From Acidobacteriota bacterium (GTDB taxonomy: Bacteria; Acidobacteriota; Vicinamibacteria; Vicinamibacterales; JAKQTR01), in contig JAPKZO010000006.1 of assembly GCA_026393755.1 (NCBI GenBank), positions 186,001 through 250,000 of the forward strand: a stretch of DNA of 64,000 nucleotides. The letters run 5' to 3'. This document shows, piece by piece, positions 11,314 through 29,774 of the stretch; position 1 is the stretch's first letter, and the number at the start of each line of letters is the position of its first letter. The notes beneath the pieces are model-generated. The model was not told the origin of the DNA. It saw only the letters and a list, made by a program, of their open reading frames with translations, and ran no database searches. Position numbers and translations under genes: made by a program.

Positions 11314-11341
11314 CAGCGATTGTTCTACCCAAGGAGTGCCG

Positions 11342-12610
11342 ATGCGCAAGATCATCCTCGTCGCGACCGCAGCAATCATTCTGACGATGACGACGGCCAG
11401 ACCGGTGTCGCTACTCGCGAGTGACGGGTACTTCAGCCAAGGCTATGGGACCTGCTCCCAGGGCATGGGCGGCGCAGGCGTCGCCTTTCCGCTCGGCCCG
11501 TTATCACCCGCAACCAACCCGGCATCGCTGGTGCTCTCGGATCCTGGATGGGAATTCGGTGTCGGGCTGTTCAATCCGAATCGCCACTACGAGGTGATCG
11601 GCGACCCGTCTGGTTATCCCGGCACGTTCGGTCTTGCTCCGGGCCTCATCGACAGCGGAAGCCGTCTGTTTCCGGTCCCGCATCTGGGGTTTGCCCGCCC
11701 GCTCGGGTCCAGCGCGTCCATCGGGATCGCGGTCTTCGGCAATGGCGGGATGAACACGAACTACAGCGCTCGCACGTTTGGTTTCTCGCCGACGGGCATC
11801 AACATGTCGCAGTTGTTCGTCGCGCCGACCTACTCGATGAAGCTCAACGCGCGGAACGCCGTCGGCGTGACCGCGCTCGTGGGCTACCAGATGTTCAAGG
11901 CCGAAGGACTGCAGGCATTCAGCGCTTTCTCGAGCGATTCGAAGAACCTGACCAACAACAAGACGGATTCGGCGTTTGGTTTCGGCGTCCGTGTTGGTTA
12001 CGTTGGGCAGCTGTCCAAGTCTGTTTCCGTCGGCGCGGCGTACCAGTCGAAGGTCTACATGAGTCGCTTCAAGAAGTACGCGGGCCTGTTCGCCGAACAG
12101 GGCGGATTTGACGTGCCGTCGAACTGGACAGCCGGCGTTGGCATCAAGCTGAACGACGCATTCGACCTGGCATTCGACGTCCAGCAGATGCGTTACAGTG
12201 ACGTCAAATCGGTCGGCAACCTCATGTTGCCAAACCTGATGCAGGCGGCGCTTGGCGCGACGGGCGGCGCGGGCTTCGGATGGAAGGACATGACGGTCGT
12301 GAAGACGGGCCTGCAGTACCGCGTCGGCGGCGGCTGGACCTGGCGGGCCGGCTACTCGTACGGGAAGCAACCGATACCCTCGAGCGAGGTGCTGTTCAAT
12401 ATCCTGGCTCCGGGAGTCATCGAGCACCATGCGACCTTTGGCATCAGCAAGGATCTGGGTCGCGGACGCGCCTTCGATGTGGCCGTGATGCGCGCGTTCA
12501 ACAAGACCGTGTCTGGTCCCAATCCGCTCGAGGCACCGGGCCAGCAGACGATCACGCTCGGCATGAATCAGTGGAATGTCACCATCGGCTACTCGATCAG
12601 GTTGAAGTAA
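11342..12610 (+). CDS. FadL/OmpP1-family outer-membrane channel
   Basis: A 422-residue outer-membrane barrel. A signal peptide (MRKIILVATAAIILT...) is followed by the family's N-terminal pattern GYFSQGYGTCSQGMGGAGVA and many alternating beta strands, ending in an aromatic/charged C-terminus. FadL channels admit hydrophobic substrates such as fatty acids or hydrocarbons. The ATG at 11342 has AAGGAG six bases upstream. As first gene of the sigma-54 operon with a PsrABC-like complex it may admit a hydrophobic sulfur or organic substrate; that is inference from context only. Confidence 0.82.
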   Translation: MRKIILVATAAIILTMTTARPVSLLASDGYFSQGYGTCSQGMGGAGVAFPLGPLSPATNPASLVLSDPGWEFGVGLFNPNRHYEVIGDPSGYPGTFGLAPGLIDSGSRLFPVPHLGFARPLGSSASIGIAVFGNGGMNTNYSARTFGFSPTGINMSQLFVAPTYSMKLNARNAVGVTALVGYQMFKAEGLQAFSAFSSDSKNLTNNKTDSAFGFGVRVGYVGQLSKSVSVGAAYQSKVYMSRFKKYAGLFAEQGGFDVPSNWTAGVGIKLNDAFDLAFDVQQMRYSDVKSVGNLMLPNLMQAALGATGGAGFGWKDMTVVKTGLQYRVGGGWTWRAGYSYGKQPIPSSEVLFNILAPGVIEHHATFGISKDLGRGRAFDVAVMRAFNKTVSGPNPLEAPGQQTITLGMNQWNVTIGYSIRLK

Positions 12611-14810: not shown

Positions 14811-15350
14811 GTGGCACGCTACGGCATGGCAATCGATACCCGGAAGTGCGTCGGGTGCATGGACTGCGTGGTTGCGTGCAAGACCGAGAACGGTGTGCCG
14901 GAGGGACTCAACCGCGACTGGATCGCCTATGAATCGGCAGGGAAGTTCCCGACGATTCACATGGAGATTCGGTCCGAACGGTGCAATCACTGTGACAATC
15001 CGCCGTGCGTGGCGTGCTGCCCGACCGGCGCCAGCCATGTGGACGACCTGGGTCACATCGTCCTTGTCACCCACAACGCGTGCATCGGATGTAAGGCGTG
15101 CCTGGCGTCCTGCCCGTACGACGCGCGGTTCGTGCATCCGGACGGATACGCCGACAAGTGCACGTTCTGCGCGCACCGCGTCGGCGAGGGCCTCGATCCT
15201 GCGTGCGTCATGGTGTGCCCGACGCGCTGCTTTACCTTCGGCGATCTCGATGATCCCCAAAGCGCGATCACTCGCGTGCTCGAGTCGCGCAGGGGACATG
15301 CTCTCCTGACTGACGCCGGCACCGGGCCGCGCATCTTCTACCTGGACTGA
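14811..15350 (+). CDS. PsrB-like ferredoxin subunit with four [4Fe-4S] clusters
   Basis: A 179-residue electron-transfer subunit of the DMSO reductase B family. Four cysteine groups are visible: CVGCMDCVVAC (near residue 13), CNHCDNPPCVACC (near 59), CIGCKACLASC (near 92) and CTFC...CVMVC (near 119-135). The GTG start lies two bases after the stop of the catalytic subunit. It should carry electrons between the periplasmic molybdenum subunit and the NrfD-type quinol site. Confidence 0.9.
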   Translation: MARYGMAIDTRKCVGCMDCVVACKTENGVPEGLNRDWIAYESAGKFPTIHMEIRSERCNHCDNPPCVACCPTGASHVDDLGHIVLVTHNACIGCKACLASCPYDARFVHPDGYADKCTFCAHRVGEGLDPACVMVCPTRCFTFGDLDDPQSAITRVLESRRGHALLTDAGTGPRIFYLD

Positions 15351-15361: not shown

Positions 15362-16324
15362 ATGACGCCTGAACTGTTCATCACGCGGCATAACGAACTG
15401 GTGGACCCGTTCGTCCAGGTCTGGAGTTGGCAGATCCCGGTCTATCTGTTTCTCGGCGGGCTGGTGGCTGGCATGATGATCATCACCGGCTTCTCGCTCG
15501 TGAAAGGGCGCTATGGCGAGCGCTCGTGCATCTGCTCGGCGCTGCCGGGTGTTGGCCTCGTGATGCTCAGCCTTGGCATGCTGGCCCTGTTCCTGGACCT
15601 CGAGCACAAGTGGTACGTCTGGCGTCTCTACACGACATTCCAGCCGTCCTCGCCGATGTCGTGGGGCGCGTGGATTCTCGTGCTGGTCTATCCCGTGCTC
15701 ATCGCAAGCTGGCTTGTCCGGCCTCCCGCTCTGCTTGAGGATCTCAGCCAGACCGTCGAGCGCGCGTCGGCATGGCTGCAGGCCCGGCCGCAGGCCGTTC
15801 GTGCGATGGGTGCGGCCAGCCTTGGGCTCGGCGTGGCGCTCGGGATCTACACGGGGATCCTGCTGAGCTCGCTTGGAGCCAGGCCGTTGTGGTCGAGCGG
15901 CATTCTGGGCCCGCTCTTCCTCGCCTCCGGGCTCTCGGCGGCCGCCGCGTTCACGCACATGGTGGCCCGAAACGAGCACGAACGCATCGAGATGGCGCGC
16001 CTGGACAACGTGGCGCTCACTGCCGAATTGGGCATCCTGGCGCTGCTGATGCTCGGCCTGTTCTCCGGCAGCGCACCACAGATGGCGGCGGCGGGCCTGT
16101 TCATGGGAGGCGCGTACACGGCCCCGTTCTGGGTGTTCGTTGTCGCGCTCGGCATCGTGATGCCGCTGATTATTCAGAACCTGGCCGTGGCGCACCGAAT
16201 CGCGCACACACCGCTCGCACCGTTGATGGTGATGACCGGAAGCCTCGCGCTGCGGTTTGTCTTCGTTCAGGCGGGGCAGATGAGCCACTGGGCGCACGGT
16301 GTGTTGGGGGTCATCAGGCATTGA
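15362..16324 (+). CDS. NrfD/PsrC-family membrane quinone-interacting subunit
   Basis: A 320-residue integral membrane protein with about eight hydrophobic helices, starting near residue 20 (QIPVYLFLGGLVAGMMI, the usual first helix of the NrfD family). It completes a PsrABC-type complex with the two preceding genes and should exchange electrons with the quinone pool. No haem ligands are expected in this family. The start ATG is 11 bases after the previous stop. Confidence 0.87.
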   Translation: MTPELFITRHNELVDPFVQVWSWQIPVYLFLGGLVAGMMIITGFSLVKGRYGERSCICSALPGVGLVMLSLGMLALFLDLEHKWYVWRLYTTFQPSSPMSWGAWILVLVYPVLIASWLVRPPALLEDLSQTVERASAWLQARPQAVRAMGAASLGLGVALGIYTGILLSSLGARPLWSSGILGPLFLASGLSAAAAFTHMVARNEHERIEMARLDNVALTAELGILALLMLGLFSGSAPQMAAAGLFMGGAYTAPFWVFVVALGIVMPLIIQNLAVAHRIAHTPLAPLMVMTGSLALRFVFVQAGQMSHWAHGVLGVIRH

Positions 16325-16354: not shown

Positions 16355-16891
16355 ATGACGACAACAACTGGTGATCGCCGGCCGCAGGCGTACACGAATC
16401 CCTATCTGGCCGGGATCGGCCTCGGCCTGGTGCTGCTCTCCTCGTTCGTCCTCGTGGGACGAGGCCTGGGAGCATCGGGCGCGTTCAATTCGGTCATCGC
16501 TTGGGCCGTCAACGCAGTCGCTCCGGCTCATGCGAGGAGCAACGAGTTCATCGCCGGCTATCTCGGTGACGGCAGCGCATCGCCGCTCAAGTCGTGGCTG
16601 GTGTTCGAAGTGATTGGCGTGTTCGCCGGAGCCATGCTGTCGGGTCTGCTGGCCGGCCGCACGAAGGTCATGACCGAAAAGGGCCCGCGCGTGTCGGTCC
16701 GCATGCGGCTGGCGATGGCGTTCGCCGGCGGCATACTGATGGCGTTCGGAGCGGCGCTGGCTCGCGGATGCACGAGCGGTCAGGCGTTGACCGGTGGCGC
16801 CCTGCTGAATCTCGGCAGTTGGGTGTTCATGATGATGGTATTCGCCGGGGCGTATGCCGTGGCGTATTTTGTCAGGTGGCAATGGCGATGA
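16355..16891 (+). CDS. YeeE/YedE (TsuA-like) sulfur transporter, first half
   Basis: A 178-residue membrane protein with about four helices. The stretch ARGCTSGQALTGGALL near residue 138 is the conserved Cys-containing motif of YeeE/YedE transporters, where Cys relays thiosulfate. GAAAGGA precedes the ATG at 16355; nothing supports the longer frame from 16328. It overlaps the next gene, which supplies the other half of the family's usual fold. Probable role: uptake of thiosulfate or a related sulfur species for, or from, the molybdoenzyme pathway. Confidence 0.8.
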   Translation: MTTTTGDRRPQAYTNPYLAGIGLGLVLLSSFVLVGRGLGASGAFNSVIAWAVNAVAPAHARSNEFIAGYLGDGSASPLKSWLVFEVIGVFAGAMLSGLLAGRTKVMTEKGPRVSVRMRLAMAFAGGILMAFGAALARGCTSGQALTGGALLNLGSWVFMMMVFAGAYAVAYFVRWQWR

Positions 16892-17484
16892 TGGCACCCT
16901 TTTTCAAGTACGGGCTGTTCGGCGACCAGACGAGCCTGGTTGTCGCATTCTTCATCGGCATCGGTTTCGGGTTCTTCCTCGAACGCGCAGGGTTAGCCAG
17001 CGCACGCAAACTCATGGCGCAGTTCTACCTGACCGATCTCGCCGTGTTCAAGGTGATGTTCACCTCAATCATCACCGCCATGCTTGGCCTCACGTATCTT
17101 TCGTGGCTGGGCTGGCTGGACCTGTCGCTGGTGTACCTGGTGCCCACCTACCTGATGCCGCAGGTTGTCGGTGGCCTGGTACTCGGTGCGGGCTTCGTCA
17201 CCGGGGGATACTGCCCCGGCACGTCGGTTGCCGCCACGGCGACAGGACGCGTCGATGGCCTGGTGTCAATCCTCGGCATCACCTTCGGGATGTTCGTCTT
17301 CGCCGAAGCCTTCCCGCTCGTGAAGGGGTTTTACCTGAGCGGAGCAGGGGAGGCGATGACCATACCGAAGGCCTTTGGCTTGCCCTACGGGCTCGTTGTG
17401 TTCGCAGTGGTCCTGATGGCGCTCGGGGGGTTCTACGGGGCGGGAATCCTCGAGAAGAAGATCGCGGCTCGATCCGGGGAGTGA
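16882..17484 (+). CDS. YeeE/YedE (TsuA-like) sulfur transporter, second half
   Basis: A 200-residue membrane protein with about five helices and the second conserved motif GAGFVTGGYCPGTSVAA. The ATG at 16882 has AGGTGG upstream and overlaps the preceding gene by 10 bases; in-frame ATGs at 16888 and 16891 are alternatives. Together the two half-proteins equal one full YeeE/YedE transporter like the single-chain version at 36638-37870, so the transporter here is split. Confidence 0.78.
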   Translation: MAMMAPFFKYGLFGDQTSLVVAFFIGIGFGFFLERAGLASARKLMAQFYLTDLAVFKVMFTSIITAMLGLTYLSWLGWLDLSLVYLVPTYLMPQVVGGLVLGAGFVTGGYCPGTSVAATATGRVDGLVSILGITFGMFVFAEAFPLVKGFYLSGAGEAMTIPKAFGLPYGLVVFAVVLMALGGFYGAGILEKKIAARSGE

Positions 17485-17487: not shown

Positions 17488-18156
17488 ATGCGCAAGTGGA
17501 TCTCGACGCTCACCCTCAATAAGACCCTTGCGCTCGTGGCGCTGACCCTTGGTGCGATTGCCGTCTTCGCGGTGCCGGTGCCTGGCGGCACGATCACGCT
17601 GGATGCTAAGGAACTCGCCCTCGTCATCGGCAGGGAAGCCGATCATGTTGATCCGCCCGAGCTGGCGTCGTGGATCATCGAAGCCCGTGCCGACTATCGC
17701 CTGATCGACCTGCGCGGAGAAGCCGCGTTTGCGCAGTACTCCATCCCTGGCGCGATCAACGTGCCAACGGCGAGGCTGATCGACGCGGGACTTGGTCGTC
17801 CCGAGAAGCTCGTCTTGTACTCTGACGACGGCGTGGGTGCGGCTCAAGCCTGGATGCTGCTTAGAGCCCGGGGCTACAAGGCGGTCTACATGCTCAAGGG
17901 CGGCCTCGACGGATGGAAGGACCAGGTGATGTTTCCGATCGTCGCCGATAACCCCACCCCTGATCAGCGGACCCGCGACGAACGCGCGCGTTCGGTCAGC
18001 GCGTTCTTCGGTGGCCGGCCGCGCAGTTCGTCAACCGTTGCGGCTGGAGGATCGGGGTTCGCGATGCCGACAGTCCCGACCCTGCCAAAGGTGGCCGCGC
18101 CAGCGTCGCCAACGGGCGGAGCAAAGCCCACGGCAAAGAAGAGGGAAGGATGCTAG
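17488..18156 (+). CDS. Membrane-anchored rhodanese-like protein lacking the active-site Cys, with C-terminal Cys
   Basis: A 222-residue protein: an N-terminal signal or anchor (residues about 11-30), then a rhodanese fold with RLIDLRGEAAFAQYSIPGA near residue 70. The active loop reads LVLYSDDGVGAAQ, where a catalytic rhodanese would have Cys in place of the Ser. The domain ends with GGLDGWK. A Pro/Ala/Gly/Ser-rich tail of about 55 residues follows and ends KKREGC. That last residue is the only cysteine in the protein. It is the last gene of the sigma-54 operon, four bases after the transporter. A sulfur-carrier role for the tail is inference. Confidence 0.78.
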   Translation: MRKWISTLTLNKTLALVALTLGAIAVFAVPVPGGTITLDAKELALVIGREADHVDPPELASWIIEARADYRLIDLRGEAAFAQYSIPGAINVPTARLIDAGLGRPEKLVLYSDDGVGAAQAWMLLRARGYKAVYMLKGGLDGWKDQVMFPIVADNPTPDQRTRDERARSVSAFFGGRPRSSSTVAAGGSGFAMPTVPTLPKVAAPASPTGGAKPTAKKREGC

Positions 18157-18453: not shown

Positions 18454-19012
18454 TCTGCTCGCGGCACTCTCTCGCACCCTCGCGGGCCTCAACGTGCCCT
18501 GGTACGTGTTCGGCGCGCAGGCTGCGCTGATCTGGGGCCGGCCGCGCATGACGATGGACGTCGATGTCACCGTGCGGTTGGGAGACACGGACAGCGGCAC
18601 GTTGGTCAGCGCATTGCAGGCAGTCGGGTTTGACCTCCGCATCGTCGCGACGCAGGACTTCGTGCAGCAGACCCGGGTACTGCCGTTCAGCCATCGACCA
18701 ACCGGCCTCGCCGTCGATGTCGTGCTGGCTGGCCCTGGTCTGGAGGACGCTTTTCTTTCCCGGGCCGTCGTGCTGGAGATTGGCGGAACGAAGGTCCCGG
18801 TGATCAGCGCCGAAGATCTGATTGTCACGAAGATTCTCGCGGGACGTCCCAAAGACATCGACGACATTCGCGGCGTGCTCCAGGAGCGCGGCGGCGGCCT
18901 CGACATCGATCAGATCCGAAGCACTATCGAGATGCTGGAGCAGGCTCTAGGACAAAGCGACCTGCTGCCCATCCTCGACACCGAGATCGATCGGTGGCGC
19001 CGGCACGGCTGA
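18428..19012 (+). CDS. Nucleotidyltransferase of the AbiEii/DUF6036-like group
   Basis: A 194-residue protein with a minimal nucleotidyltransferase core: WYVFGAQAALIWGRPRMTMDVDV near residues 26-48 contains the G-x-x-A and the D-V-D metal-binding pair, and DVVLAG near 98 is the third acidic position. The end (EDLIVTKILAGRPKDIDDI) is typical of AbiEii-type toxins and related proteins. GTG start at 18428 within the preceding gene. Likely one half of a toxin-antitoxin pair. Confidence 0.68.
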   Translation: MPSSIGPSDLLAALSRTLAGLNVPWYVFGAQAALIWGRPRMTMDVDVTVRLGDTDSGTLVSALQAVGFDLRIVATQDFVQQTRVLPFSHRPTGLAVDVVLAGPGLEDAFLSRAVVLEIGGTKVPVISAEDLIVTKILAGRPKDIDDIRGVLQERGGGLDIDQIRSTIEMLEQALGQSDLLPILDTEIDRWRRHG

Positions 19013-19043: not shown

Positions 19044-19628
19044 CTAGGGCAGCGGTCGTCCCGCGGTCTGCCAGGCTTTGATCGCGTCGAGTGGATGTAC
19101 CAGCATGATGATGTTCAATGTCAGGTTGTCACGCACCCACAACGCCGTCCCGACTTCCATCGCGACCATGACGAGGATGGTCACCCACACCCGTGCGCGC
19201 CTGGCGATGACGAATCCGAGGCCGGCGAAGAGAATATCGCTCAGCGAATTGAAGACGCTGTCTCCCACATACCCCAGCGAGATGGTCACCTCGCGGTAGC
19301 GGTCAATGATGATCGGCGAGTTCTCGAGAACCTCCCACCCGGCTTCCAGGGCGAGCGCGCAGACAAAGCGTTGACGGACGGGCGCTGTCGGCGCGACGAA
19401 CCAGAGAAACGCGTAGAACAGCATGCCGTGGATCATGTGGGAGAACGTGTAGGGATCGGCGAAGCGCTGCGACTGCTCGCTGCTCCAGATGTTGCCTTCC
19501 CAGAATCCCATCCTGCCATCCGGCCCGAACGGCAGCCGTCCCATCCAGAGTTCCACGGCCGCTGTCACGGCCATGATGGCGATGCCGGCGACGACAATCG
19601 ACGCGTACTGACGATAGCGGGCAGGCAT
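19044..19628 (-). CDS. DUF2585 (UPF0314) membrane protein
   Basis: A 194-residue membrane protein with about five helices. The stretches DPYTFSHMIHGMLFY, GWEVLENSPIIIDRYREV and VRDNLTLNIIMLVHP are hallmarks of DUF2585/UPF0314. The ATG lies one base after the stop of the large cytochrome gene, so it is the last gene of the minus-strand respiratory operon. The family's function is unknown; its conserved His, Glu and Arg within helices and its place here suggest a link to the membrane complex, as inference. Confidence 0.82.
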   Translation of the reverse strand: MPARYRQYASIVVAGIAIMAVTAAVELWMGRLPFGPDGRMGFWEGNIWSSEQSQRFADPYTFSHMIHGMLFYAFLWFVAPTAPVRQRFVCALALEAGWEVLENSPIIIDRYREVTISLGYVGDSVFNSLSDILFAGLGFVIARRARVWVTILVMVAMEVGTALWVRDNLTLNIIMLVHPLDAIKAWQTAGRPLP

Positions 19629-19629
19629 C

Positions 19630-22407
19630 CTAGCTCCAGACCGGCAAGACACACCGCGGGCTGCGCCGTGCCAACAGGCGTTCGAAATCCCGCACGGAGT
19701 CGCGCATGACGGCCGAGCTGGCCTTGTGGCACGTCAAACACGCACCCACCCTGAGAATCCGGCGCTGTTCTTCGATACTGAACGGCCGGACGTCGTCTCG
19801 CGTCGAGACCATGTCGTGGCGCTCGCCGAGAAACGGGATCCACGCGTTGGCTGGAAATCCGTCAGACGGCAGACGCTCCGAAGCGGGGGTGAACCGCCAT
19901 CGCCCGCCAGCCGGCGTTGGTTCGTAGCGCAGGTCGCCGCGACCATAGCCGAGCGCGGTCGGGTTGTTGTGACACGACTCGCACGATCGCACCTCCCGCC
20001 TCGTCGTGTGCGGCTCGATGCGTGCGTAGAGCCGGCGGAACAGGAGATCTGACGGACGCCCCGCCTCGCGCTTGCGTTCAATGGTGAGGATCATCGCCGG
20101 GACAAACGTCTCGATCACCTCCCGCCGCGCGCCAGTTCCTTCGGGAAGACGCCGAATGCCGAGTGTGGGGAGGTCGGCAGCAAACGGGCCGGCCTTTTCA
20201 CTCCAGGCGCCGCGGACATCGGCGTTGTCGATCCAATCGTAGGCAGCCGCCGAGGCGTCAAACGACGTGTGGCACGTCGGACAGCGGGGTGCCCACGCGG
20301 TGTGGCAACTTCCACACGAGAGCCGCGTGTGGCCAGGGCCTTCGAGGCACACGGGGATCGCCGGCTTGAGGTCTCTCCGCTCGCCGGTCCGCTTGCGAAC
20401 CATGCGGGGCGTCCCCGTCGCGTCGATCAGCGCATTGACGAGGACGTCACCCTTCGGCGTCCTGACATAGTGACTCGGCTTGGGTCCAGGCCAGTTTCGC
20501 AACCCAAGAATCCGCTGCGATTCCGGGTCAATCCCGGCGGCCGCGACAACAGCCAATCGGGTTCCGGGAAGGGCGTGGCAGTCCTCGCACGCGACCCTGA
20601 GTTGCTCGCTCTTGCGACCGTGCGCGACGCCATCTCCCATCACTTCGGTAGACGTGTGGCAATCGATGCAGTCGAGACCCCGCTGCTGGTGGATATCGGG
20701 GATCAGGCGCTTGAAGATGCGATCATCCTCTATTCTGCGAAATCCCGACGGCACGGGCCGGGACCGATCGGATGCCTCGGTGGGGGCATCATTGATCTCG
20801 GTCCAGCCTTCGAAACTCGTTGCGATGCGGGCCGATCGACTATGGCAACCAAGGCACTGCCCGTTGCCGACGTCGAGCGACAGCGCCGGATGGACAGAGG
20901 GCGCCGCCGCTGCGCCCCGCATCTTCTGGTTCTCATAACGGGTCAACTCCGCCAGCGCCGCCGGGCTGTACGTCAGATGACACGCATTGCACCCGCCTCC
21001 GCGCGTCCCCTCGCCGTTGGGTCCCAGCGCGACCTTGGCCATCCCGAGGTGGCATCCCGCGCAGAGTTGCCTCATGTGCGTGTCAGCCGCCGTCCGGCCG
21101 AGATCCCGCACGTGGACGGGGCCATTCTGTCGACCGGCGCCTTCCTCGCCGAAGACGCGACGGTTGATGGCCACGATGCCGCTCATCGTGGCCATCAATG
21201 ACCCCTCGACACGGGGGACAATCGAGGCGTGGCATGCGGCCTGGCCGCATCCGCGAATCGCCCTGGCCAGATTGCCCGCGATGACCTCCATGCCGGCGTG
21301 CGCACGCCGTTTGTCGACGGTGAACGGGTCGCCGCCGTGACACGACGCGCACCCGATGGCCTCGGGCCGGTGTGCGTTACCGAGTCCGGTAACGCCTCGA
21401 TGGCAGATCAGACAGCCTTCGGGCCGCCCCATCACAACTGGAAGGGGTGCCGGAAGCGGAGAAGGCGCGTCGGGCGTCGCGGCGAGTAACCAGCCCACGC
21501 GCACGTTTCCGGCCCCGGTCGGCCAGCCGGCTTTCCACGACCAGTTCTCGCCGCGCAGAAAGCTTCCAACGCCGCACAGCCCGAGGTACGTCACTGCCAG
21601 AGCCAGCAGGATGCCCTTCGTCCAGCGCGCACCGGTCGCCGGGGCTGCCTGCACCGCATAGATAGCGCCCACGACAGCCGCACCTGCCGCGACGACGACA
21701 AGAGGCCACGGGGTCCAGTGCAGGATCTCCTGGAGACCGAGGAAGTACCACGGTCCCTTGACGACAGGTTCCAGGCCATCGTGCAGACCGGGAGACATGA
21801 CGAGCGAGATGCCGCTGGTGACCAGCAAGACCGCCAGAAAGGCCGACCAGCGAGGCCACACGCGGCGTGCGTGCTCAATGACGAAGAGCCACACGATGAT
21901 GGTCGCGGTAGCTGCATGCTGCACGTAGATCACGTCGAGGCGCTCGCCCGCACCGAAGAGCAACGTCGCCATCAACGGCCCGAGCATCGGCACCTGCGAG
22001 GTGGCCTCGCTCAGGATTCGCATGGCCTGCCGTCCCTCGGCGTCGCCGCGCAGCATGAACCCCGAGAGCATGATGAATGCCAGCAGTGGCAGCGTCAGTG
22101 CCAGACGAAGCCACACGCCCCGGCCCACGCGCTGTTCGGTTCGCGCGCGCAAGTGATCCCACATGTGGAGCAGCGTCAGCACCAGGCACAACTGGCCGGC
22201 CCAGTAGTGCGTGTTGCGAAAGAACGCCCCCGCGGGATTGCCGAGCATTAGGGCAGCGATCGAGCGGTAGCCGTCCTGTGCGTCGTACGGCACGGCGACG
22301 GCCGCGCCGGAGACAGCGGCGATGACAAATGCCGCCGTCGCGCCATCGCCGAGGGTACCCCATCGAAAGGCGAGAATGGGTGCGGGCTCGCCGCTGTCAG
22401 GAGACAC
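19630..22407 (-). CDS. Cytochrome b6/subunit IV fused to a 12-haem cytochrome c domain
   Basis: A 925-residue fusion. The first 320 residues are a membrane cytochrome b: in one helix two His are 13 residues apart (HYW...LLH) and in a later helix two His have 14 between (QHAATA...IEH), the spacing of cytochrome b6. A Qo-site-like GPWYFLGLQE follows with three more helices. The remaining 600 residues are periplasmic with 11 CxxCH sites (CLICH, CASCH, CAGCH, CNACH, CLGCH, CIDCH, CEDCH, CGSCH, CPTCH, CESCH, CLTCH) plus one CGQAACH (Cx4CH). The GTG at 22407 has GGAGGG upstream and overlaps the Rieske gene by 11 bases. It should oxidise quinol with the Rieske protein and pass electrons along the haem wire. 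Confidence 0.88.
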   Translation of the reverse strand: MSPDSGEPAPILAFRWGTLGDGATAAFVIAAVSGAAVAVPYDAQDGYRSIAALMLGNPAGAFFRNTHYWAGQLCLVLTLLHMWDHLRARTEQRVGRGVWLRLALTLPLLAFIMLSGFMLRGDAEGRQAMRILSEATSQVPMLGPLMATLLFGAGERLDVIYVQHAATATIIVWLFVIEHARRVWPRWSAFLAVLLVTSGISLVMSPGLHDGLEPVVKGPWYFLGLQEILHWTPWPLVVVAAGAAVVGAIYAVQAAPATGARWTKGILLALAVTYLGLCGVGSFLRGENWSWKAGWPTGAGNVRVGWLLAATPDAPSPLPAPLPVVMGRPEGCLICHRGVTGLGNAHRPEAIGCASCHGGDPFTVDKRRAHAGMEVIAGNLARAIRGCGQAACHASIVPRVEGSLMATMSGIVAINRRVFGEEGAGRQNGPVHVRDLGRTAADTHMRQLCAGCHLGMAKVALGPNGEGTRGGGCNACHLTYSPAALAELTRYENQKMRGAAAAPSVHPALSLDVGNGQCLGCHSRSARIATSFEGWTEINDAPTEASDRSRPVPSGFRRIEDDRIFKRLIPDIHQQRGLDCIDCHTSTEVMGDGVAHGRKSEQLRVACEDCHALPGTRLAVVAAAGIDPESQRILGLRNWPGPKPSHYVRTPKGDVLVNALIDATGTPRMVRKRTGERRDLKPAIPVCLEGPGHTRLSCGSCHTAWAPRCPTCHTSFDASAAAYDWIDNADVRGAWSEKAGPFAADLPTLGIRRLPEGTGARREVIETFVPAMILTIERKREAGRPSDLLFRRLYARIEPHTTRREVRSCESCHNNPTALGYGRGDLRYEPTPAGGRWRFTPASERLPSDGFPANAWIPFLGERHDMVSTRDDVRPFSIEEQRRILRVGACLTCHKASSAVMRDSVRDFERLLARRSPRCVLPVWS

Positions 22408-22846
22408 GGGCAGTCCACCCTCCGGAGACCGGATCCGGTTCGATGTTGAACGGCTTGAGCGGACGCGTCGCGGGTCCGGTCGAAACCGTGCCGTCGGCGC
22501 GATACCGCGACCCGTGACAGGGACAGACCGCCTCGTCGCCGACAATCCGGTCGATACGGCAGCCCAGATGCGTGCAGCGCGCGGAAAAGACACGGATGGT
22601 GCCGTTGTCGGCGCGGTCGACAATGACCGCATCGAGCACGGACAGACCGACGGACACATCAGGCGGGATCGTGATTGTCGCGGGGACGCTCGCAGTCTGC
22701 TCGCGCCGCAGCATGGCAACAAGCCCGCCCAGGAAGGGAAGCGTCAGTCCAACGCCCATGAGACGCCGCAACACTTGCCGGCGTGAACGGCGAACCTCGT
22801 CACCTGGACCTTGCGCGGGAGCGGCGAACTGCCTCCTGGGTACCAT
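22397..22846 (-). CDS. Rieske iron-sulfur protein
   Basis: A 149-residue Rieske subunit of a cytochrome bc-type complex. It has a twin-arginine membrane anchor (SRRQVLRRLMGVGLTLPFLGG, residues 21-41) and the cluster ligands CTHLGC and CPCHGS. It overlaps the cytochrome b6/multihaem gene by 11 bases, a clear sign that the two form one complex. It should accept the first electron from quinol at the Qo site. Confidence 0.92.
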   Translation of the reverse strand: MVPRRQFAAPAQGPGDEVRRSRRQVLRRLMGVGLTLPFLGGLVAMLRREQTASVPATITIPPDVSVGLSVLDAVIVDRADNGTIRVFSARCTHLGCRIDRIVGDEAVCPCHGSRYRADGTVSTGPATRPLKPFNIEPDPVSGGWTARVS

Positions 22847-22892
22847 CCTTGGAATTCTACCGTGAGCGGTCGGGATCCGGGTCTGTCGCCGG

Positions 22893-23693
22893 TCATTCAG
22901 GTCGAACGGGCTCGGTCGGTCCGGCGATGTCAGCCGGATGGCCAGTCTCGTCGTCGTGCTGCCGGTCCCAGACTCCTTCTTCCGCCTTCACGATGGTCCA
23001 CCACTTGAAGTGATGGCTGTAGGCATACAGTTCGTTGACCGTCCCCGTGATCATCGAGAAGAAAGCCGGCTTCTCTTCGGGGAAGACCGCACCCATGTAG
23101 ACGTGAATCATCAGGCCGGACACAACGAGTCCCGCCGCGCCAAAGTGCACCACCACGGCCCAGCCGACCACCTGCGTGCCGAACAGGCGAAACGCCATCA
23201 CCACCCCGCTCGCCATGACGACGGGGATCATTGTATAGACCAGGAAGGCGAACAGCTTCTGTCCCGCATTGTAGATGCCCTGCGGAGGAAGAGGTTCGCT
23301 GGTCCATCCGAGAATCCGCTGCGTGCGCACAATCAGCCATCGGACATCGTCGCGATCGAGTGCGATTTCGTGCTGGAGCACTTCCCTCGACAGGTACGTA
23401 CGAAATCCGAAGATGCCGTAGACGAGGTACACGCCGATCCACGAGAGTCCCAGTGCCACGTGAATCTGTAATACATTGGCCCGGCTGCCGAAGATGCCTT
23501 CGACAAGGGATATGTACCAGCTCGGTGCGACGCGGAAGAGCGGCGAGGAAATCAGCGCCAGCCCCGTCAGCAGTTCGGAGCCCCACACGAGGGCATTGAA
23601 CCAGTGCAGCAGGATGATGGCGATGTGGTGTTTCTTGACGTGCCGCTGGAGCATGGCTTCGGCCTGCTCCGAGGTGAGCGGCAACGGACGCAC
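22893..23693 (-). CDS. Di-haem cytochrome b561/FdnI-like membrane subunit
   Basis: About 266 residues with four main helices, of the cytochrome b561 / formate dehydrogenase gamma group. Likely haem ligands are in HHIAIILLHWFNAL, HVALGLSW and VVHFGAAGLVVSGLMIHVYMG. The GTG at 23693 lies 10 bases after the preceding FeS gene; an ATG at 23654 with GGAGCAGG upstream is a shorter alternative. It should link the molybdenum/FeS module to quinone, taking the place of the NrfD subunit found in the plus-strand operon. Confidence 0.8.
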   Translation of the reverse strand: MRPLPLTSEQAEAMLQRHVKKHHIAIILLHWFNALVWGSELLTGLALISSPLFRVAPSWYISLVEGIFGSRANVLQIHVALGLSWIGVYLVYGIFGFRTYLSREVLQHEIALDRDDVRWLIVRTQRILGWTSEPLPPQGIYNAGQKLFAFLVYTMIPVVMASGVVMAFRLFGTQVVGWAVVVHFGAAGLVVSGLMIHVYMGAVFPEEKPAFFSMITGTVNELYAYSHHFKWWTIVKAEEGVWDRQHDDETGHPADIAGPTEPVRPE

Positions 23694-23703
23694 GGGAACG
23701 GCG

Positions 23704-24435
23704 TCAGTCCTCAAAATCCTTCTCCCCGTTTCTGAGCTGGTTGAAGAACGCCACCGCCTGTCCGACAAACGTCGCCCCGACAGCCGCCAGGACGAGCGGT
23801 TTCAGCACCCGGCTCCATGCTTCTCCGGCGGCCAGCAATCGGGGCGGTCGGGGCGGGAACGCGGCCATGACCAGATCCGCGCGCGCCTGTTCTCCGGCGT
23901 AATAGACATTCGGGCCGACCCTGACCCGGCTGGTCTCCATGCGGCGTGCCCCCATCGCGTAGACCATCTTGAAGACGTCGCTGTGCCGGTCCTCGAGATC
24001 GCCAAAGTACTTCGCGTGGGCCGTGCAGGTGGTCACGCATGCCGGTTCCGCCCCGCGTTCGAGGCGCGCCAGGCAGAAGTCGCACTTATCAACCTTCTTC
24101 GTGACGGGGTTGATGTAGCGGGCGTCGTACGGACAGGCGTCGAGACAGAACCCGCATCCGATGCACAGGCTCTTGTCCACCTCAACAATCCCGTTCGCAC
24201 CCTGAGACGTGGCGCCAGACGGGCACGCCTCGACACACGGCGGTCGGTCGCACTGGTTGCACTGCGCCACATAGACGCCGGAGGCCAGGTGAGGGAACGT
24301 GCCACTGATCGGGGTTGAGCGAACCCGTGTCCGGGCGTACCCGGCCGGCACGCCCCATTCGGCGTTGCAGGCCACGGTGCAGGCCTGGCAGGCCACGCAC
24401 TTTGTGAGATCGGTCACCATGGCGTATCGGGCCAC
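23704..24435 (-). CDS. Four-cluster FeS subunit with C-terminal membrane anchor
   Basis: A 243-residue DMSO-reductase-B-type ferredoxin. Cysteine groups CVACQACTVAC (near residue 13), CNQCDRPPCVEAC, CIGCGFCLDAC and CDFC...CVTTC hold four [4Fe-4S] clusters. Unlike the paralogue at 14811 it carries a C-terminal helix (LKPLVLAAVGATFVGQAVAFF), as in FdnH-type subunits that dock to a b-type cytochrome. The GTG start has AGGAGG four bases upstream. It lies between the molybdenum subunit (8 bases before) and the b561-like gene. Confidence 0.88.
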   Translation of the reverse strand: MARYAMVTDLTKCVACQACTVACNAEWGVPAGYARTRVRSTPISGTFPHLASGVYVAQCNQCDRPPCVEACPSGATSQGANGIVEVDKSLCIGCGFCLDACPYDARYINPVTKKVDKCDFCLARLERGAEPACVTTCTAHAKYFGDLEDRHSDVFKMVYAMGARRMETSRVRVGPNVYYAGEQARADLVMAAFPPRPPRLLAAGEAWSRVLKPLVLAAVGATFVGQAVAFFNQLRNGEKDFED

Positions 24436-24443
24436 TGATCCTC

Positions 24444-26663
24444 CTAGATCCCGGTCGTCTGCTTCACGACACGGACGAAATTCACGCGCATGCCGGTGCC
24501 CCCCATCAGTGGATCGACCTTCACGCGGGTCATCAGCCCGGTGTCCGAGGCCCCTCGTTTGAATGCGCGATGAAGGCCCTTCGATCGCTGACCGAAGCCA
24601 TGCACGAGGTACGCGCAATCTTGGCGGATGCCTTCGGTCACCTTCACCCGCACAGGCAGGCTTCGGACGCCGTCGGTGTTCTCGAGCACGACCCGATCGC
24701 CCTCGCGCAGCCCCAGGTCTGTGGCGGACCTGGTGCTCAACCAGGCTTCGTTCTCGGCCATCAACGCGTTCAGCACTTCGTTGTTCTGGGTTCGTGCGAA
24801 CGAGTGCACCGGCGCGCGGCCGTAGATGAGGCGGAGGTACCCGGCTGGCGGATCCTCCACCGGCGTGTAGCGAGGTAGCGGGTCGGCCCCGAGGTTCTCG
24901 AGTTCCCGGGAGAACAGCTCGATCTTGCCGCTGCCCGTCGGGAACGGCGACTCGCTATCCGCAGCCCGGTCGTCCAGATACGGCCGCCCTGGAAATGCCA
25001 CGGCTCCCCGGGCCCGGAGTTCTTCGCCATTGATATCCATCGGCGCGATGATCGTCGCCAGGTGCTCGTCGGGGGTGTTCCAGGGGAACCACGCATCGAG
25101 ACCCAGCCGTTTGGCCGTCTCCTTGGCGATCCACCAGCCCGGCTTCGATTCGTAAAGGGGGTCGCAGGCCGGGAAGCGCACCGAGACGAATGGCTGCCGG
25201 GCTGTCGTGACGATCGAGGGGGAGTCGTAGCGCTCAAGATAAGTCGCTTCGGGCAGCACCAGGTCGGCGTAATTGATCTGCTCGACCGGAAGAACGTCGA
25301 CGACAACCATCAGATCGAGTGCGTCGATCGCCTTCAACGTCTTCTGCGGCTCGGGGATGCTCTCCAGGACATTTTGCCCGTACACGATCCAGGCCTTGAT
25401 CGGGTACGGCTTCCCAGTGACGGTTGCATCGACCAGTCCGTTGGTGACGCCCAGTTCCTCCGACGCCAGCGGGTAGCGAGTACCAGCGCCGTCGGCTCTG
25501 CCGCGCGGCGGGTCCGGGAAGGGAGGCAGATCAAAGGCCCCCTTGGGGATTGGCGTTGGCAGAAAGATGCCGCCCTTGCGCCCCCAGCTGCCAAGCAGTG
25601 CCGTCAGAATCGCCATGGCGCGCGCGCGTTGCGTGTCGTCGCCATACCAGGTGACGTGCCGGCCTGGGTGGACCACCACGGCCGGCTTCGCGGCCCCCAT
25701 CGCCCTGGCGGTGTCCCGAATCTGTGCCGCCGGCAGTTGCGTGATCGCCGCCGCCCATTCGGGCGTGAACTCGCGGACGTGTGTGGCGAGCTCGTTGAAC
25801 CCCTGCGCGTACCGGGTGATGTACTCCTGGTCATGCAGACCTTCCGCGATCAGCACGTTCATCCAGGCCAGCAGGAGTGCGATGTCGGTGCCGGGCCGGA
25901 TCGGGAGCCACCAGTCCGCCTTGGAGGCCGCCGTCGAGAACCGCGGGTCAACGGCAATCACCTTCGCGCCACGTGACAACGCCGTCGCGAACGCCGTGAT
26001 CTGGGACGTGAACACGTTCTCGCCGAGGTGGCTGCCGATGAGGACGATGAGCCGTGATTCCTCGAGATCGAGAGGCTCAGGCGATCCGAGTTCCCGTCCG
26101 AACGTGAGCGTGTAGCCAACTTCCCTCGGACCCCGGCACTGCGCGAATGACGGTTCGGCGCTGTTCGGCGTTCCGTACGCCTTCATGAGGGTGCTGAAGA
26201 ACCGAGCGCTCAGCCCGTGGGGAAACAACGCGACGCTCTCCGGGCCATGCTCGACAGCGATAGCCTTCAGTCTCGACGCGAGAAAGTCGAGCGCCTCGTT
26301 CCAGCTGATGCGCCTGAACTGTCCCTCGCCTCGCTTTCCCGTTCTGAGGAGGGGGAACTTCAGTCGATCGGGGTCGTAGAGCAGGCTGGTTCCGGCATTG
26401 CCGCGCGCGCACAGCCTGCCCTTGGTCAACGGGTGATCCGGGTTGCCTTCGAGCCTGACGACCTTGCCGTCGGCCACATTGGCAAGGACGCCGCACCGCC
26501 AGAAACACATTTCACACGTCGTGGCGATCTTCTCGACGCGCTGCGTCCCACTCCATCCCGGGGGATGGTTCTCGGCGTTCACCGCGGTCGACGTGGCCGC
26601 GGTGCCCGCGCCGACTGCGGCGATCGTGCCAAGGAATCGTCGCCTCGAAACCGTGTTGTCCAT
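24444..26663 (-). CDS. Second Tat-exported PsrA/PhsA-like molybdopterin oxidoreductase
   Basis: A 739-residue paralogue of the protein at 12613-14808. It has a Tat signal (SRRRFLG), a [4Fe-4S] site CEMCFWRC near residue 44 with the fourth Cys in GRLCARG, and the same probable molybdenum ligand region SFAQCRGPR. Long stretches are shared with the paralogue (GSHLGEN, DPRFS.AASKA, GRH.TWYG.DTQR). ATG at 26663 is used; an ATG at 26690 would add nine residues. Here the partners are an anchored FeS protein, a b561-like protein and a Rieske/cytochrome b6 complex. Substrate is probably an inorganic sulfur compound or another oxyanion; it cannot be fixed from sequence. Confidence 0.85.
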   Translation of the reverse strand: MDNTVSRRRFLGTIAAVGAGTAATSTAVNAENHPPGWSGTQRVEKIATTCEMCFWRCGVLANVADGKVVRLEGNPDHPLTKGRLCARGNAGTSLLYDPDRLKFPLLRTGKRGEGQFRRISWNEALDFLASRLKAIAVEHGPESVALFPHGLSARFFSTLMKAYGTPNSAEPSFAQCRGPREVGYTLTFGRELGSPEPLDLEESRLIVLIGSHLGENVFTSQITAFATALSRGAKVIAVDPRFSTAASKADWWLPIRPGTDIALLLAWMNVLIAEGLHDQEYITRYAQGFNELATHVREFTPEWAAAITQLPAAQIRDTARAMGAAKPAVVVHPGRHVTWYGDDTQRARAMAILTALLGSWGRKGGIFLPTPIPKGAFDLPPFPDPPRGRADGAGTRYPLASEELGVTNGLVDATVTGKPYPIKAWIVYGQNVLESIPEPQKTLKAIDALDLMVVVDVLPVEQINYADLVLPEATYLERYDSPSIVTTARQPFVSVRFPACDPLYESKPGWWIAKETAKRLGLDAWFPWNTPDEHLATIIAPMDINGEELRARGAVAFPGRPYLDDRAADSESPFPTGSGKIELFSRELENLGADPLPRYTPVEDPPAGYLRLIYGRAPVHSFARTQNNEVLNALMAENEAWLSTRSATDLGLREGDRVVLENTDGVRSLPVRVKVTEGIRQDCAYLVHGFGQRSKGLHRAFKRGASDTGLMTRVKVDPLMGGTGMRVNFVRVVKQTTGI

Positions 26664-26788
26664 GACGGGGAGTCCCTCTGTCGGTGGCATGCTCCTCGAG
26701 CGCCCAATGCCCGCCGCGCCAATATGCCGTGTCGATGCGGATCGAGCGCCCGAAGAGCGTGCGCATATCGAGCGCGCGGACACTCGCG

Positions 26789-27109
26789 CTAGCAGCCGGC
26801 CATCGAGTTGCCCTTCTGGAAAGACACGGCTTCGCCGACCTTCATGTCGGGGGCCTTCGGCGTGGTGACGGTGATGGTGACCGGGGTGACCTTGGGATCC
26901 GAGACCTCCACGACCTTCCCGTTGCCGACCTTGAACTTCACCGGGGCGTTCTTCTTGATCCAGTCCGGTTTCGCACCATCGATGGCGATTTGAACCTTGT
27001 TTCCGTCAATCGCCAGGATCTTGCCGTTGGTCATCGCCGGGGCCGCCGCAGCCGAGGACAGGGCGAATGCCGCCAGAACCAGTACGAGCGCCAGTGCAAT
27101 CTGCTTCAT
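26789..27109 (-). CDS. Small exported protein with a single, C-terminal cysteine
   Basis: A 106-residue protein with a clear signal peptide (MKQIALALVLVLAAFALSSAAAA). The mature part is a small beta-rich domain with short repeats of the type GNKVQIAIDG, VKFKVGNGKVVEV, VTITVTT and ends GNSMAGC. The final residue is the only cysteine. It lies between the porin and the molybdoenzyme genes of the respiratory operon. No family recognised. The C-terminal Cys parallels the tail of the rhodanese-like protein at 17488 and, more loosely, the C-terminal Cys arm of SoxY; a substrate- or sulfur-carrying role is inference. Confidence 0.7.
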   Translation of the reverse strand: MKQIALALVLVLAAFALSSAAAAPAMTNGKILAIDGNKVQIAIDGAKPDWIKKNAPVKFKVGNGKVVEVSDPKVTPVTITVTTPKAPDMKVGEAVSFQKGNSMAGC

Positions 27110-27146
27110 CATGAGTGGTGTCTCCTGTCTGAATTCGAGCCAGCGT

Positions 27147-28472
27147 CTAGAACACGCCGATCTGCGCCATGATTCGGAACGAATTGTATGAGGTCAGTTT
27201 GTCGAGCGGGGCAAAGGTGACCGGGTCGACGCGAGCGCCCACGAACCCCGTTTCCTTGGCGAATGTCGTCTTGAGATATTCGAACGTGAACCGGACGTTC
27301 TGCTTGTGCACGTAGTAATTGAGCCCGACGCCCTTCTGCGTGATCCCCTGATCGTTGATCCCGAGCAGATGTGCGAACTTCCAATCCTCGTAGAGGACGT
27401 AGGGCTGCAGCAGCCCCTCGGCCCCGACCTTGACGGGGAGCAGGTAGGCGCCCTTGGCAAACCAACCATGCTTCTGTCCGTTGAGGCCGGCGATGTTGAC
27501 GAGGCGGTCGCCAGCATTGAAGTTGGTCAGGTACGCGTTGTCGAAGTCGACCTTCAGGTACTGGGCGGTCGCGGTGACCGTGCCCGCCGTGGTCGGGTAC
27601 TCAAAGAGAATGTCGGCTGCGTACGCCTTGTAGTCGACCGTCGCGTTGTCGAGGACAGCTCCTGTCGAGGAGACGTTTCTGTAGACGGCGTGAGGTTCGT
27701 ACGCCATCCCGCCGCCGATGGTCAGGACTTTCAGTTCGCCAAGGTAGGAGCCCGAGTATCCGGCGCCGGGCTCCGCGTCGAGAAACGCGTAGTGCAACCG
27801 GCCGACATACTCCAGCGAGCTCTGAGGCTCGATTGACGACTTGACCGTGGCGCCGGAGAACGGATGAGTCGTGGCGGTGATCCCTTCCCGTCCCTGGAAC
27901 GCGCCGGCGAAGTACTTCAGTTTGTCGTTCTGGAAGCCGCCCCATGCCACCACCCCGAAATCGCGGCTGAACTTGGCCGGCGACGTGCCGTAGGCGCTGT
28001 AGACGAAGAATGAGCGATCCTGCGACAGGGGCGCAAAGCAGTCGTCCAGATTCGCGCGAGTCAGCGGAATCTTGGTGAGACCGATCTTGAGATTGGCCTT
28101 CTCCGAGAAGTTGGCAATGCCGTAGCCGTCAATGAGCCGGATATCCCGGTCATTCCAGTCGACGTCCTGGGCGGTCAGGCCGTATCCAAGGGCGCCCTGT
28201 TTGGACGTGCCGCAGTTGCCGCACGTCTGGAACTTGAAGCCCCACACCTCGTTCAGCATCGCGGTGACGGTCAGCCGCACCCGCTGGAAGTGGATGTCGG
28301 TGCGGGTCCCCTGACGATCCTGGCCCGACCCGAAGTCGGTGGTTTCTGAGAAAATCTGTCCCTTCACTTCGAACTTGAAGGTCGGTTCCTGTGCGCGAGC
28401 CAGCGTGGCCGTGCCGACGATGGCGACGGTAACAGCCGCACCAACCATGGCGCACATGCGTGGGGTGATCAT
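27147..28472 (-). CDS. Outer-membrane porin of the phosphate-selective (OprO/P) type
   Basis: A 441-residue barrel with signal peptide (cleavage after TLARA). It has alternating beta strands throughout, ends in a C-terminal Phe (IGVF), and shows strands typical of the OprO/P or DUF3138-like porins (RVRLTVTAMLNEVWGFKFQ, LKIGLTKIPLTRANLDD). GGAGG lies 10 bases before the ATG at 28472. First gene of the minus-strand respiratory operon, so it probably admits the anionic substrate of the molybdoenzyme. It contains an unusual CGNC pair near residue 76. Confidence 0.8.
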   Translation of the reverse strand: MITPRMCAMVGAAVTVAIVGTATLARAQEPTFKFEVKGQIFSETTDFGSGQDRQGTRTDIHFQRVRLTVTAMLNEVWGFKFQTCGNCGTSKQGALGYGLTAQDVDWNDRDIRLIDGYGIANFSEKANLKIGLTKIPLTRANLDDCFAPLSQDRSFFVYSAYGTSPAKFSRDFGVVAWGGFQNDKLKYFAGAFQGREGITATTHPFSGATVKSSIEPQSSLEYVGRLHYAFLDAEPGAGYSGSYLGELKVLTIGGGMAYEPHAVYRNVSSTGAVLDNATVDYKAYAADILFEYPTTAGTVTATAQYLKVDFDNAYLTNFNAGDRLVNIAGLNGQKHGWFAKGAYLLPVKVGAEGLLQPYVLYEDWKFAHLLGINDQGITQKGVGLNYYVHKQNVRFTFEYLKTTFAKETGFVGARVDPVTFAPLDKLTSYNSFRIMAQIGVF

Positions 28473-28715
28473 GTTCAAGCAGCCTCCAGACAGTAACGTA
28501 GGGATGAAAACGCTCAACCATGCTTGGGGGCAACGAGGATGAGGGGAGCCGCGTGGCGTGCACTGGGGGCGGTGTGGTCGGTGAGCCGGCGCCGGTGTCC
28601 GACGGTGCGTCGTCCGCCGAACGCCGGGCCGGCACGCGCCCCGGCACGCCTGACAGGGCACTCCTGCATGGTCGTTCGGAGCCGGTCTGAAGTAAACTGA
28701 GACTCTGTCATGCGA

Positions 28716-28736
28716 CCCATAACTTCCCGTTATGGG
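28716..28736. promoter_or_regulatory. Perfect 8-base dyad, candidate LysR operator
   Basis: CCCATAAC, TTCCC, GTTATGGG. The core fits the LysR-type T-N11-A rule (T at 28720, A at 28732). It lies in the divergent region just before the regulator gene. Confidence 0.6.
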
Positions 28737-28757
28737 GCCCACGGATTGGCGGTAGCG

Positions 28758-29774
28758 GTGGAATCCCTGTACTTGAAGACGCTGGTGGAAGTGGTTAGGA
28801 CCGGCAGCCTGTCGCGGGCGGCGGAGATCCTGCACGTGACCCAACCGGCGGTGTCGAAGCGGATCAAGTTCATGGAGGACCAGTACGGCTGCGCGTTGCT
28901 GGACCGCTCGGGTGCTCACCTGAGGACTACCCCTGCGGGGCGGCTGGTTTACGAGAAGGCGGAATCCGTCCTGGAGATCGAGGCCGACCTGGTGTCGGGG
29001 CTCCATGTGCTCAGTGGGAAGACCCGGATCGCCTTCAGTTGCACGCCGTCGTTTGGCATTGCCCATCTGCCCGCCATCCTCAAGGAATTCATGCTGGCGT
29101 GCGCCGACGGCGCCGACCTGAAATTCATGTTCAATCCTCCGCAACAGATCCTGGAGGGACTGACGAAGGGGCGATTCGACCTGGCCGTGATGGAACTCTG
29201 CGAGTGCTTCGACCTCTCAGACCATGAGGCCTTTCCGCTGCCCGGCGACGAGATGGTGTTCGTGAGCAAGCCGGCGCTCGGCATTCTCGCGCCCGACGCC
29301 TCAATCGACGCGCTCCGCGCCGTTCCGCTGTTCACCAGGCACGAAGGCTGCTGCTCACGCATTCTGCTGGAGGACAACTTGAAAGGCGTCGGGCACGAAC
29401 TGCGTGACTTCCGGAACGTCATCGTGCTCGACGACTTGCACCTCATGGTGCAGGCGGTCGTCGACGGCGAGGGGATAGCGTTTCTTTCGCGGGACGTGCT
29501 CGGCGAGCATCTCGCCGCCGGGCGGCTGGTGGCACACCACGTGGCCGGGTTCAGACATGCTCGGCAGCGCGCCCTCGTGCTGAACCGCGGCAGCGCCCTC
29601 GACGGCCCGTCGGCCGATTTCGTCACGGCGCTGTTCAATCACTTCGACGTGCGGGTGCCGTCGTCGCTGTTCCCCGGTCGGCGGGAGGCCGAACCCGAGC
29701 CCGGACCCGCGTGTGAGATCGCCTCCCGTCGAACTCTACGCGCGAGAGTGCCTGCGGTCCGCAACCGCCGCTGA
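28758..29774 (+). CDS. LysR-family transcriptional regulator
   Basis: A 338-residue LysR protein: an N-terminal winged helix (GSLSRAAEILHVTQPAVSKRI) and a C-terminal type-2 periplasmic-binding domain from about residue 90. Cys-rich spots in the sensor domain (SCTPSFG, ELCECFD, HEGCCSRI) are unusual. The GTG at 28758 is chosen because the helix-turn-helix is then at the usual distance from the start and the operator-like dyad stays outside the gene; the ATG at 28710 would put it in the coding region. Divergent from the porin/respiratory operon, so it is likely its regulator. Confidence 0.82.
   Translation: MESLYLKTLVEVVRTGSLSRAAEILHVTQPAVSKRIKFMEDQYGCALLDRSGAHLRTTPAGRLVYEKAESVLEIEADLVSGLHVLSGKTRIAFSCTPSFGIAHLPAILKEFMLACADGADLKFMFNPPQQILEGLTKGRFDLAVMELCECFDLSDHEAFPLPGDEMVFVSKPALGILAPDASIDALRAVPLFTRHEGCCSRILLEDNLKGVGHELRDFRNVIVLDDLHLMVQAVVDGEGIAFLSRDVLGEHLAAGRLVAHHVAGFRHARQRALVLNRGSALDGPSADFVTALFNHFDVRVPSSLFPGRREAEPEPGPACEIASRRTLRARVPAVRNRR

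Follow-up and report, generated by a model that had tools for sequence, protein, structure and literature searches.

The window analyzed here is a 64,000-nucleotide stretch of a contig from an Acidobacteriota genome (4.43 Mb, 42 contigs, one haem-copper oxidase gene). Its minus strand carries an operon of eight co-directional genes (28472-19044), separated by short gaps or overlapping one another, in the order ExtI porin, ExtJ-like protein, molybdoenzyme (MopB2), FeS subunit (FeS2), b561 protein, Rieske protein, a long fusion protein (hereafter, the fusion), and DUF2585 protein. A sequence-only reading had placed a molybdenum subunit, an anchored FeS protein, a b561-like protein, a Rieske protein, a cytochrome b6/IV-dodecahaem fusion, and a porin in one operon here, and this was borne out by profile matches and by the tight spacing of the genes on a single strand.

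The ExtI-type porin (27147..28472) scored 285 bits against NF040900, above the cut-off of 150. The small exported protein encoded next to it (26789..27112) is ExtJ-like, with a score against NF040942 (40.4 bits) below the cut-off of 52.5; ExtJ also adjoins ExtI in loci L023, L027, L081, L180, L201, and L202. MopB2 (24444..26663), a molybdoenzyme of the PsrA/PhsA family, has a Tat-like N-terminus (MDNTVSRRRFLG). It is accompanied by FeS2 (23704..24435; Fer4_11, 3.5e-22), a ferredoxin-type FeS subunit with a single C-terminal hydrophobic segment at residues 214-232, and by a b561/FdnI-like membrane anchor (22893..23654; PF01292, 2e-17; formate dehydrogenase gamma, 2.5e-19) showing a four-helix FdnI-like pattern. 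The Rieske [2Fe-2S] protein (22397..22846; PF00355, 1.6e-12), equivalent to ExtO, has both ligand boxes, CTHLGC and CPCHG. The DUF2585 membrane protein (19044..19628; PF10755, 1.1e-66) closes the operon by position alone, and its gene was not found recurrently beside the fusion in other genomes. Divergent from the porin gene, on the plus strand, is a LysR gene (28710..29774) that is part of the locus; it matched the 'multiheme cytochrome-associated LysR' profile NF041036 with 359 bits (cut-off 210).

A second operon (12613-18156, plus strand) adjoins the fusion operon and lies outside the region that the sequence-only reading had covered. It encodes another PsrA/PhsA-family molybdoenzyme, MopB1 (12613..14808), a PsrB-like FeS subunit, FeS1 (14811..15350; Fer4_11, 4.1e-23), that is conserved beside MopB1, an NrfD/PsrC-type anchor (15362..16324; NrfD, 3.9e-32), two YeeE/YedE-type sulfur transport proteins (16358..16891 and 16885..17484; PF04143, 5.1e-21 and 3.4e-9), and a rhodanese (17488..18156; PF00581, 2.7e-16) with an N-terminal hydrophobic segment at residues 13-31. 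Directly upstream of MopB1 is a gene for a FadL/TodX-type outer-membrane protein (11336..12610, plus strand; PF03349, 3.5e-19) whose membership in the system is uncertain; together with a gene for a sigma-54 activator it occupies 9584-12610, and a relative of it lies near the system in locus L032 of an Ignavibacteriaceae genome. Between the two operons, at 18202-19012 on the plus strand, are two small overlapping genes, the second of which resembles, by eye, a toxin-antitoxin-type nucleotidyltransferase.

The fusion gene (19630..22407, minus strand) starts with a GTG at 22407, downstream of a GGAGGG, and overlaps the stop of the Rieske gene. Its product of 925 residues joins cytochrome b6 (four helices), subunit IV (three helices), and a periplasmic dodecahaem domain, the equivalents of ExtP, ExtQ, and ExtM. 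Profile searches matched it to the NCBIfam ExtP model (48 bits, residues 18-185) and to nearly the whole ExtM model (233 bits, residues 333-906). The twelve haem motifs comprise eleven CXXCH sites and one CX4CH site, CGQAACH, which the earlier reading had singled out.

A scan of contigs recovered 374 relatives of the fusion. The best 80 of these 374 are nearly all full length, share 37-69% identity with it, and come from Acidobacteriota, Pseudomonadota, Bacteroidota, Ignavibacteriota, and Verrucomicrobiota; they were aligned with the window fusion to give a set of 81 sequences. Each of the twelve haem motifs is retained in 79-81 of the 81, and the CX4CH spacing in 80, the remaining sequence having CX3CH, which excludes chance as the origin of the fusion. 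Its presence in 81 sequences from five phyla likewise rules out an assembly error, the outcome that would have undone the earlier reading. Regarding a plasmid origin, no match was found in plasmids. The b-haem histidines (H72/H86 and H169/H184) are retained in 76-80 of the 81 sequences, and more than 90% of them have GPW[Y/F] at the position of the Qo motif. Outside the haem motifs, seven His (351, 375, 449, 511, 578, 698, and 805) and five Met (378, 410, 595, 777, and 906) are conserved; by count, these twelve residues would match the twelve distal haem ligands. Two Cys outside the haem motifs (residues 692 and 924, A1 numbering) are invariant and possibly form a disulfide, and an invariant Lys (residue 677, A1 numbering) is a possible distal ligand.

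An AlphaFold2 model of the whole fusion (pLDDT 85.9, pTM 0.78) was compared with known structures. Residues 1-300 of the model superimposed on the bc1 cytochrome b QcrB of M. smegmatis with Z 24.8 over 287 residues, and the seven-helix topology would put the haem domain on the periplasmic side. The Rieske protein and the fusion together thus carry the traits of cytochrome bc1 and b6f complexes, namely the cytochrome b fold with the cytochrome b6/IV helices, the four b-haem histidines, the Rieske ligands, and the Qo-motif position. They differ from those complexes in having GPW[Y/F] rather than PEWY and in lacking a cytochrome c1 or f subunit, in place of which stands the fused dodecahaem domain. 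The sequences thus show a complex-III-like unit that consists of a Rieske protein and one polypeptide in which cytochrome b6 and subunit IV are joined to a twelve-haem domain that replaces cytochrome c1/f.

The dodecahaem part, modelled alone (pLDDT 84, pTM 0.84), showed no clear similarity to any solved structure in Foldseek, all chains giving E values of 0.7 or more. With VIA-align, only 1sp3, an octahaem tetrathionate reductase, reached Z of at least 2 (Z 6.0 over 286 residues, rmsd 5.2, 15% identity to the dodecahaem model), and at such a Z value a match may be accidental; unlike the fusion, that enzyme is soluble and has eight haems. In a profile search, the domain matched NrfA-type cytochromes over their haem 7-8 region only.

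Genes around the fusion homologues were called with a codon-scored caller and tblastn. In 58 of the 67 homologous loci with enough upstream sequence, the gene directly upstream of the fusion is the Rieske gene, and a MopB gene occurs within 10 kb in 25 of the 36 loci having at least 8 kb on both sides. The recurrent second neighbour elsewhere is a set encoding MopB1, the FeS subunit, the NrfD-type anchor, two YeeE/YedE proteins, and rhodanese. Among 50 fusion-bearing genomes, 49 had a match to MopB1, which was strong (at least 47% identity) in 48. Within 247 Bacteroidales, the fusion was found in 17 genomes and MopB1 in 75, with both in all 17 of the fusion-bearing ones (hypergeometric P 3.9e-10), and the two genes are no more than 10 kb apart in 15 of these 17. 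In the order to which the window belongs (149 genomes), six have the fusion, one of them as a contig-end fragment, 12 have a strong MopB1, and five have both (P 8e-6). These P values ignore genome relatedness, and most of the genomes are MAGs. The unit of Rieske protein and fusion is almost confined to genomes that encode a PsrA-type molybdoenzyme, most often alongside YeeE/YedE and rhodanese genes. The dependency is one-way, since MopB1 often occurs without the fusion (58 of the 75 MopB1-bearing Bacteroidales).

This survey upheld the view that a molybdoenzyme goes together with a quinol-oxidizing module bearing a haem chain, with a change of partner: the main conserved partner of the fusion is MopB1 of the adjacent operon and not MopB2 of its own. 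MopB1 recurs beside the fusion across phyla, whereas MopB2 accompanies it in close relatives only. The order LysR / ExtI-ExtJ-MopB2-FeS2-b561-Rieske-fusion is retained, over two contigs, in a genome of the same family (G004), and in a genome of another family (G034) it is kept from LysR / ExtI to the Rieske gene, where the contig ends. In L023, the MopB2-FeS2-b561 and ExtI-ExtJ genes are convergent to the Rieske and fusion genes, and in L026/L101 the nearby molybdoenzyme is merely a distant one (30% identity), so that the modules do, in part, come apart in relatives as far as the in-operon molybdoenzyme is concerned. The b561-anchored MopB2 set is best explained as an addition specific to this lineage, next to the NrfD-anchored MopB1 set. 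ExtI above the cut-off was found in four of the 149 order relatives, all of which have MopB1, and in four of the 50 fusion-bearing genomes. At L202 (G097:C1:296000-315000), in a genome without the fusion, ExtI and ExtJ lie inside a Psr-type operon, in the run MopB1-FeS1-ExtI-ExtJ-NrfD (5608-11192).

MopB1 and MopB2 share 51% identity. Both matched PsrA of Thermus thermophilus (PDB 2vpw) over their full lengths, with 757 and 749 bits, respectively, and the next-best solved relative scored 219-221. Based on this best, full-length match to a characterized member, the two enzymes are assigned to the PsrA/PhsA/SrrA lineage. Their scores against the NCBIfam PhsA equivalog NF012032 (515 bits for MopB2 and 488 bits for MopB1) are below its cut-off of 694. 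The Cys in SFAQCRGPREV of MopB2 (SFAQCRGPRDV in MopB1) aligns with that in SVSLCTAPREV of 2vpw, the position of the Mo ligand. In a tree, NrfD-linked and b561-linked enzymes fell on opposite sides of one branch whose support is weak (28%). Compared with PsrABC and PhsABC, of which the MopB proteins are full-length homologues, the window enzymes are below the PhsA cut-off and are linked to a complex-III-like fusion, a YeeE/YedE pair, and rhodanese. As to the anchors, MopB1 has one of the NrfD type, like PsrC, and MopB2 one of the b561/FdnI type, like PhsC. To our knowledge, no Rieske or cytochrome b partner has been reported for SrrABC, the selenite reductase of Bacillus selenitireducens. SrrABC is, by its description, of the same molybdoenzyme lineage, and its neighbourhood includes rhodanese genes, as does that of MopB1 (PMC7331816, PMC8528874). 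Rhodanese beside SrrA has been read as a selenite marker (PMC8528874), and in Desulfurivibrio a Psr enzyme with a secreted rhodanese, YeeE/YedE, and a porin has been proposed to act on polysulfide (PMC12142623). The enzymes of the PsrA/PhsA/SrrA family that have been characterized reduce polysulfide, thiosulfate, and selenite (PMC7331816).

The closest known counterpart of the fusion operon is the ext cluster (extHIJKLMNOPQS) of Geobacter sulfurreducens, in which ExtM has 12 haems, ExtO is a Rieske protein, ExtP a cytochrome b, ExtQ a 16.8-kDa membrane protein, and ExtH a rhodanese (PMC5877670); LysR genes divergent from extHIJKL-type clusters have also been described (PMC6148476). The window has the same set of Rieske protein, cytochrome b, 12-haem cytochrome, ExtQ-type membrane protein, ExtI porin, ExtJ (below cut-off), rhodanese, here in the neighbouring operon, and divergent LysR. 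Given this shared make-up and the ExtM and ExtP matches, the locus is ext-like, with ExtP, ExtQ, and ExtM, separate genes in Geobacter, in a single polypeptide, and without ExtKL, ExtN, and ExtS. These cytochromes are absent here, and the stretch of the window from 6 to 40 kb contains no other multihaem gene. Neither PMC5877670 nor PMC6148476 mentions a Psr-type molybdoenzyme for the Geobacter ext cluster. Deletion of extI in Geobacter impairs selenite and tellurite reduction (PMC5877670). The fusion falls outside the ExtM equivalog NF040943, its 233 bits (205-255 bits for four fusion homologues) comparing with a curated cut-off of 800, and transfer of the selenite/tellurite role is therefore weak.

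Taken together, the PsrA lineage of the molybdoenzymes, the precedents for Psr with rhodanese and YeeE, and the relation to ext make a chalcogen-respiration locus of Ext/Psr type, serving menaquinol-driven reduction of periplasmic sulfur or selenium species, the best reading and on balance a probable one. Menaquinol would be oxidized at the Qo site of the Rieske/fusion unit, and the Rieske protein would pass electrons to the haem chain, which is covalently attached and lies on the periplasmic side. This chain would feed the reduction of a sulfur or selenium species such as polysulfide, thiosulfate, tetrathionate, or selenite, with the Psr-type enzymes reducing the same or linked species with quinol electrons that reach them by way of their own anchors, NrfD or b561. 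Sulfane sulfur may be carried and imported by rhodanese and the YeeE/YedE proteins, and ExtI, where present, may let the substrate through the outer membrane. The fusion would in this way provide a second, Q-cycle-type route beside the Psr-type enzymes; substrate, direction, and physical contact between the modules are inferred in this scheme. A more speculative form of the scheme, to which we give little weight, makes the dodecahaem domain itself the terminal reductase, acting on an oxyanion of sulfur or selenium and distantly resembling octahaem tetrathionate reductase or NrfA. The Rieske protein and fusion would then be a two-subunit proton-translocating quinol:chalcogen oxidoreductase working in tandem with the Psr-type enzyme, one making an intermediate that the other reduces.

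Other readings give the fusion a different destination for its electrons. It could be a quinol oxidase for extracellular electron transfer, its wire leading to outer-membrane cytochromes and minerals and its link to Psr being indirect. In favour of such a role are the kinship with the ext cluster of Geobacter, which encodes proteins that respond to Fe(III) conditions (PMC5877670), a LysR of the kind found at multihaem cytochrome loci, and weak matches of ten fusion homologues to MtrC/MtrF domain II/IV. However, the porin's operon contains no gene for an outer-membrane (surface) cytochrome, other multihaem genes near the fusion are few, most fusion-bearing genomes lack ExtI, extHIJKL contributes little to the reduction of Fe(III) citrate (PMC6148476), and the fusion is strongly linked to a Psr-type enzyme. 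The suggestion in the sequence-only reading that electrons are sent outwards consequently found no backing, and we regard extracellular transfer as unlikely. That reading had also described the molybdoenzyme module as substrate-oxidizing. In principle, a Psr-type enzyme whose anchor is quinone-linked can work in both directions, and one oxidizing sulfide, polysulfide, or another donor could deliver electrons to the quinone pool, from which the bc-type unit would pass them to a higher-potential acceptor; the haem-copper oxidase gene of the host genome is in keeping with this. Against it, both molybdoenzymes belong to a family whose characterized members, as noted above, are reductases (PMC7331816), and the adjacent rhodanese/YeeE set is typical of sulfur-reducing organisms (PMC12142623), which leaves the oxidizing direction with a low probability.

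The remaining alternatives concern how closely the modules cooperate. The sequence-only reading had proposed a single physical supercomplex of the molybdoenzyme, the b561 protein, and the Rieske/cytochrome b/12-haem unit, and the gene order retained in G004 and, as far as the contig reaches, in G034 would agree with it. The two convergent units in L023 argue against it, as do other loci in which the molybdoenzyme is NrfD-anchored or unlinked. With a separate quinone-linked anchor (b561 or NrfD) in each of the molybdoenzyme modules, and with modules that often lie apart in the genome, nothing requires a supercomplex, and we consider one highly improbable. At the other extreme, habitat may select for both the fusion and MopB1 with no electron exchange between them, the two being markers of anaerobic, sulfidic lifestyles with no common function. 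MAG-based sampling and the many Bacteroidales with MopB1 alone would fit this, but the close spacing of 15 of the 17 Bacteroidales pairs and the synteny recurring in several phyla make it quite unlikely.

If menaquinol-driven chalcogen reduction is correct, an energy-conserving Q-cycle-type complex would be a direct part of sulfur or selenium respiration in uncultured bacteria, Bacteroidota and Acidobacteriota among them, and the Geobacter ext system would extend to other phyla in fused form. The presence of the same fusion in five phyla, nearly always together with a polysulfide-reductase-like enzyme, points to a shared sulfur or selenium respiration, and the combination of fusion, NrfD-anchored PsrA-type enzyme, and YeeE/rhodanese offers a marker to search for in genomes. 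In the literature searched, largely open-access papers, the fusion is not described, and the conserved link between it and a PsrA-type enzyme is likewise not described in the searchable literature.

Next to the locus, at 29876-34418, lies an arsenic/metal resistance cluster with genes for a SaoE/ArsP-like permease, a small thioredoxin-like protein, an ArsR-type regulator, an ACR3 arsenite exporter (460 bits), a phosphatase-like arsenate reductase, and, by eye, a CDF-like exporter. An arsenic role for the molybdoenzymes, hinted at by these ACR3- and ArsC-like neighbours, was ruled out by profile and PDB scores; against ArrA the two enzymes reached 164 and 144 bits, where the ArrA cut-off is 1600. 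At 2294-5628 on the plus strand, the window further encodes molybdenum and FAD subunits resembling those of xanthine dehydrogenase and 4-hydroxybenzoyl-CoA reductase.
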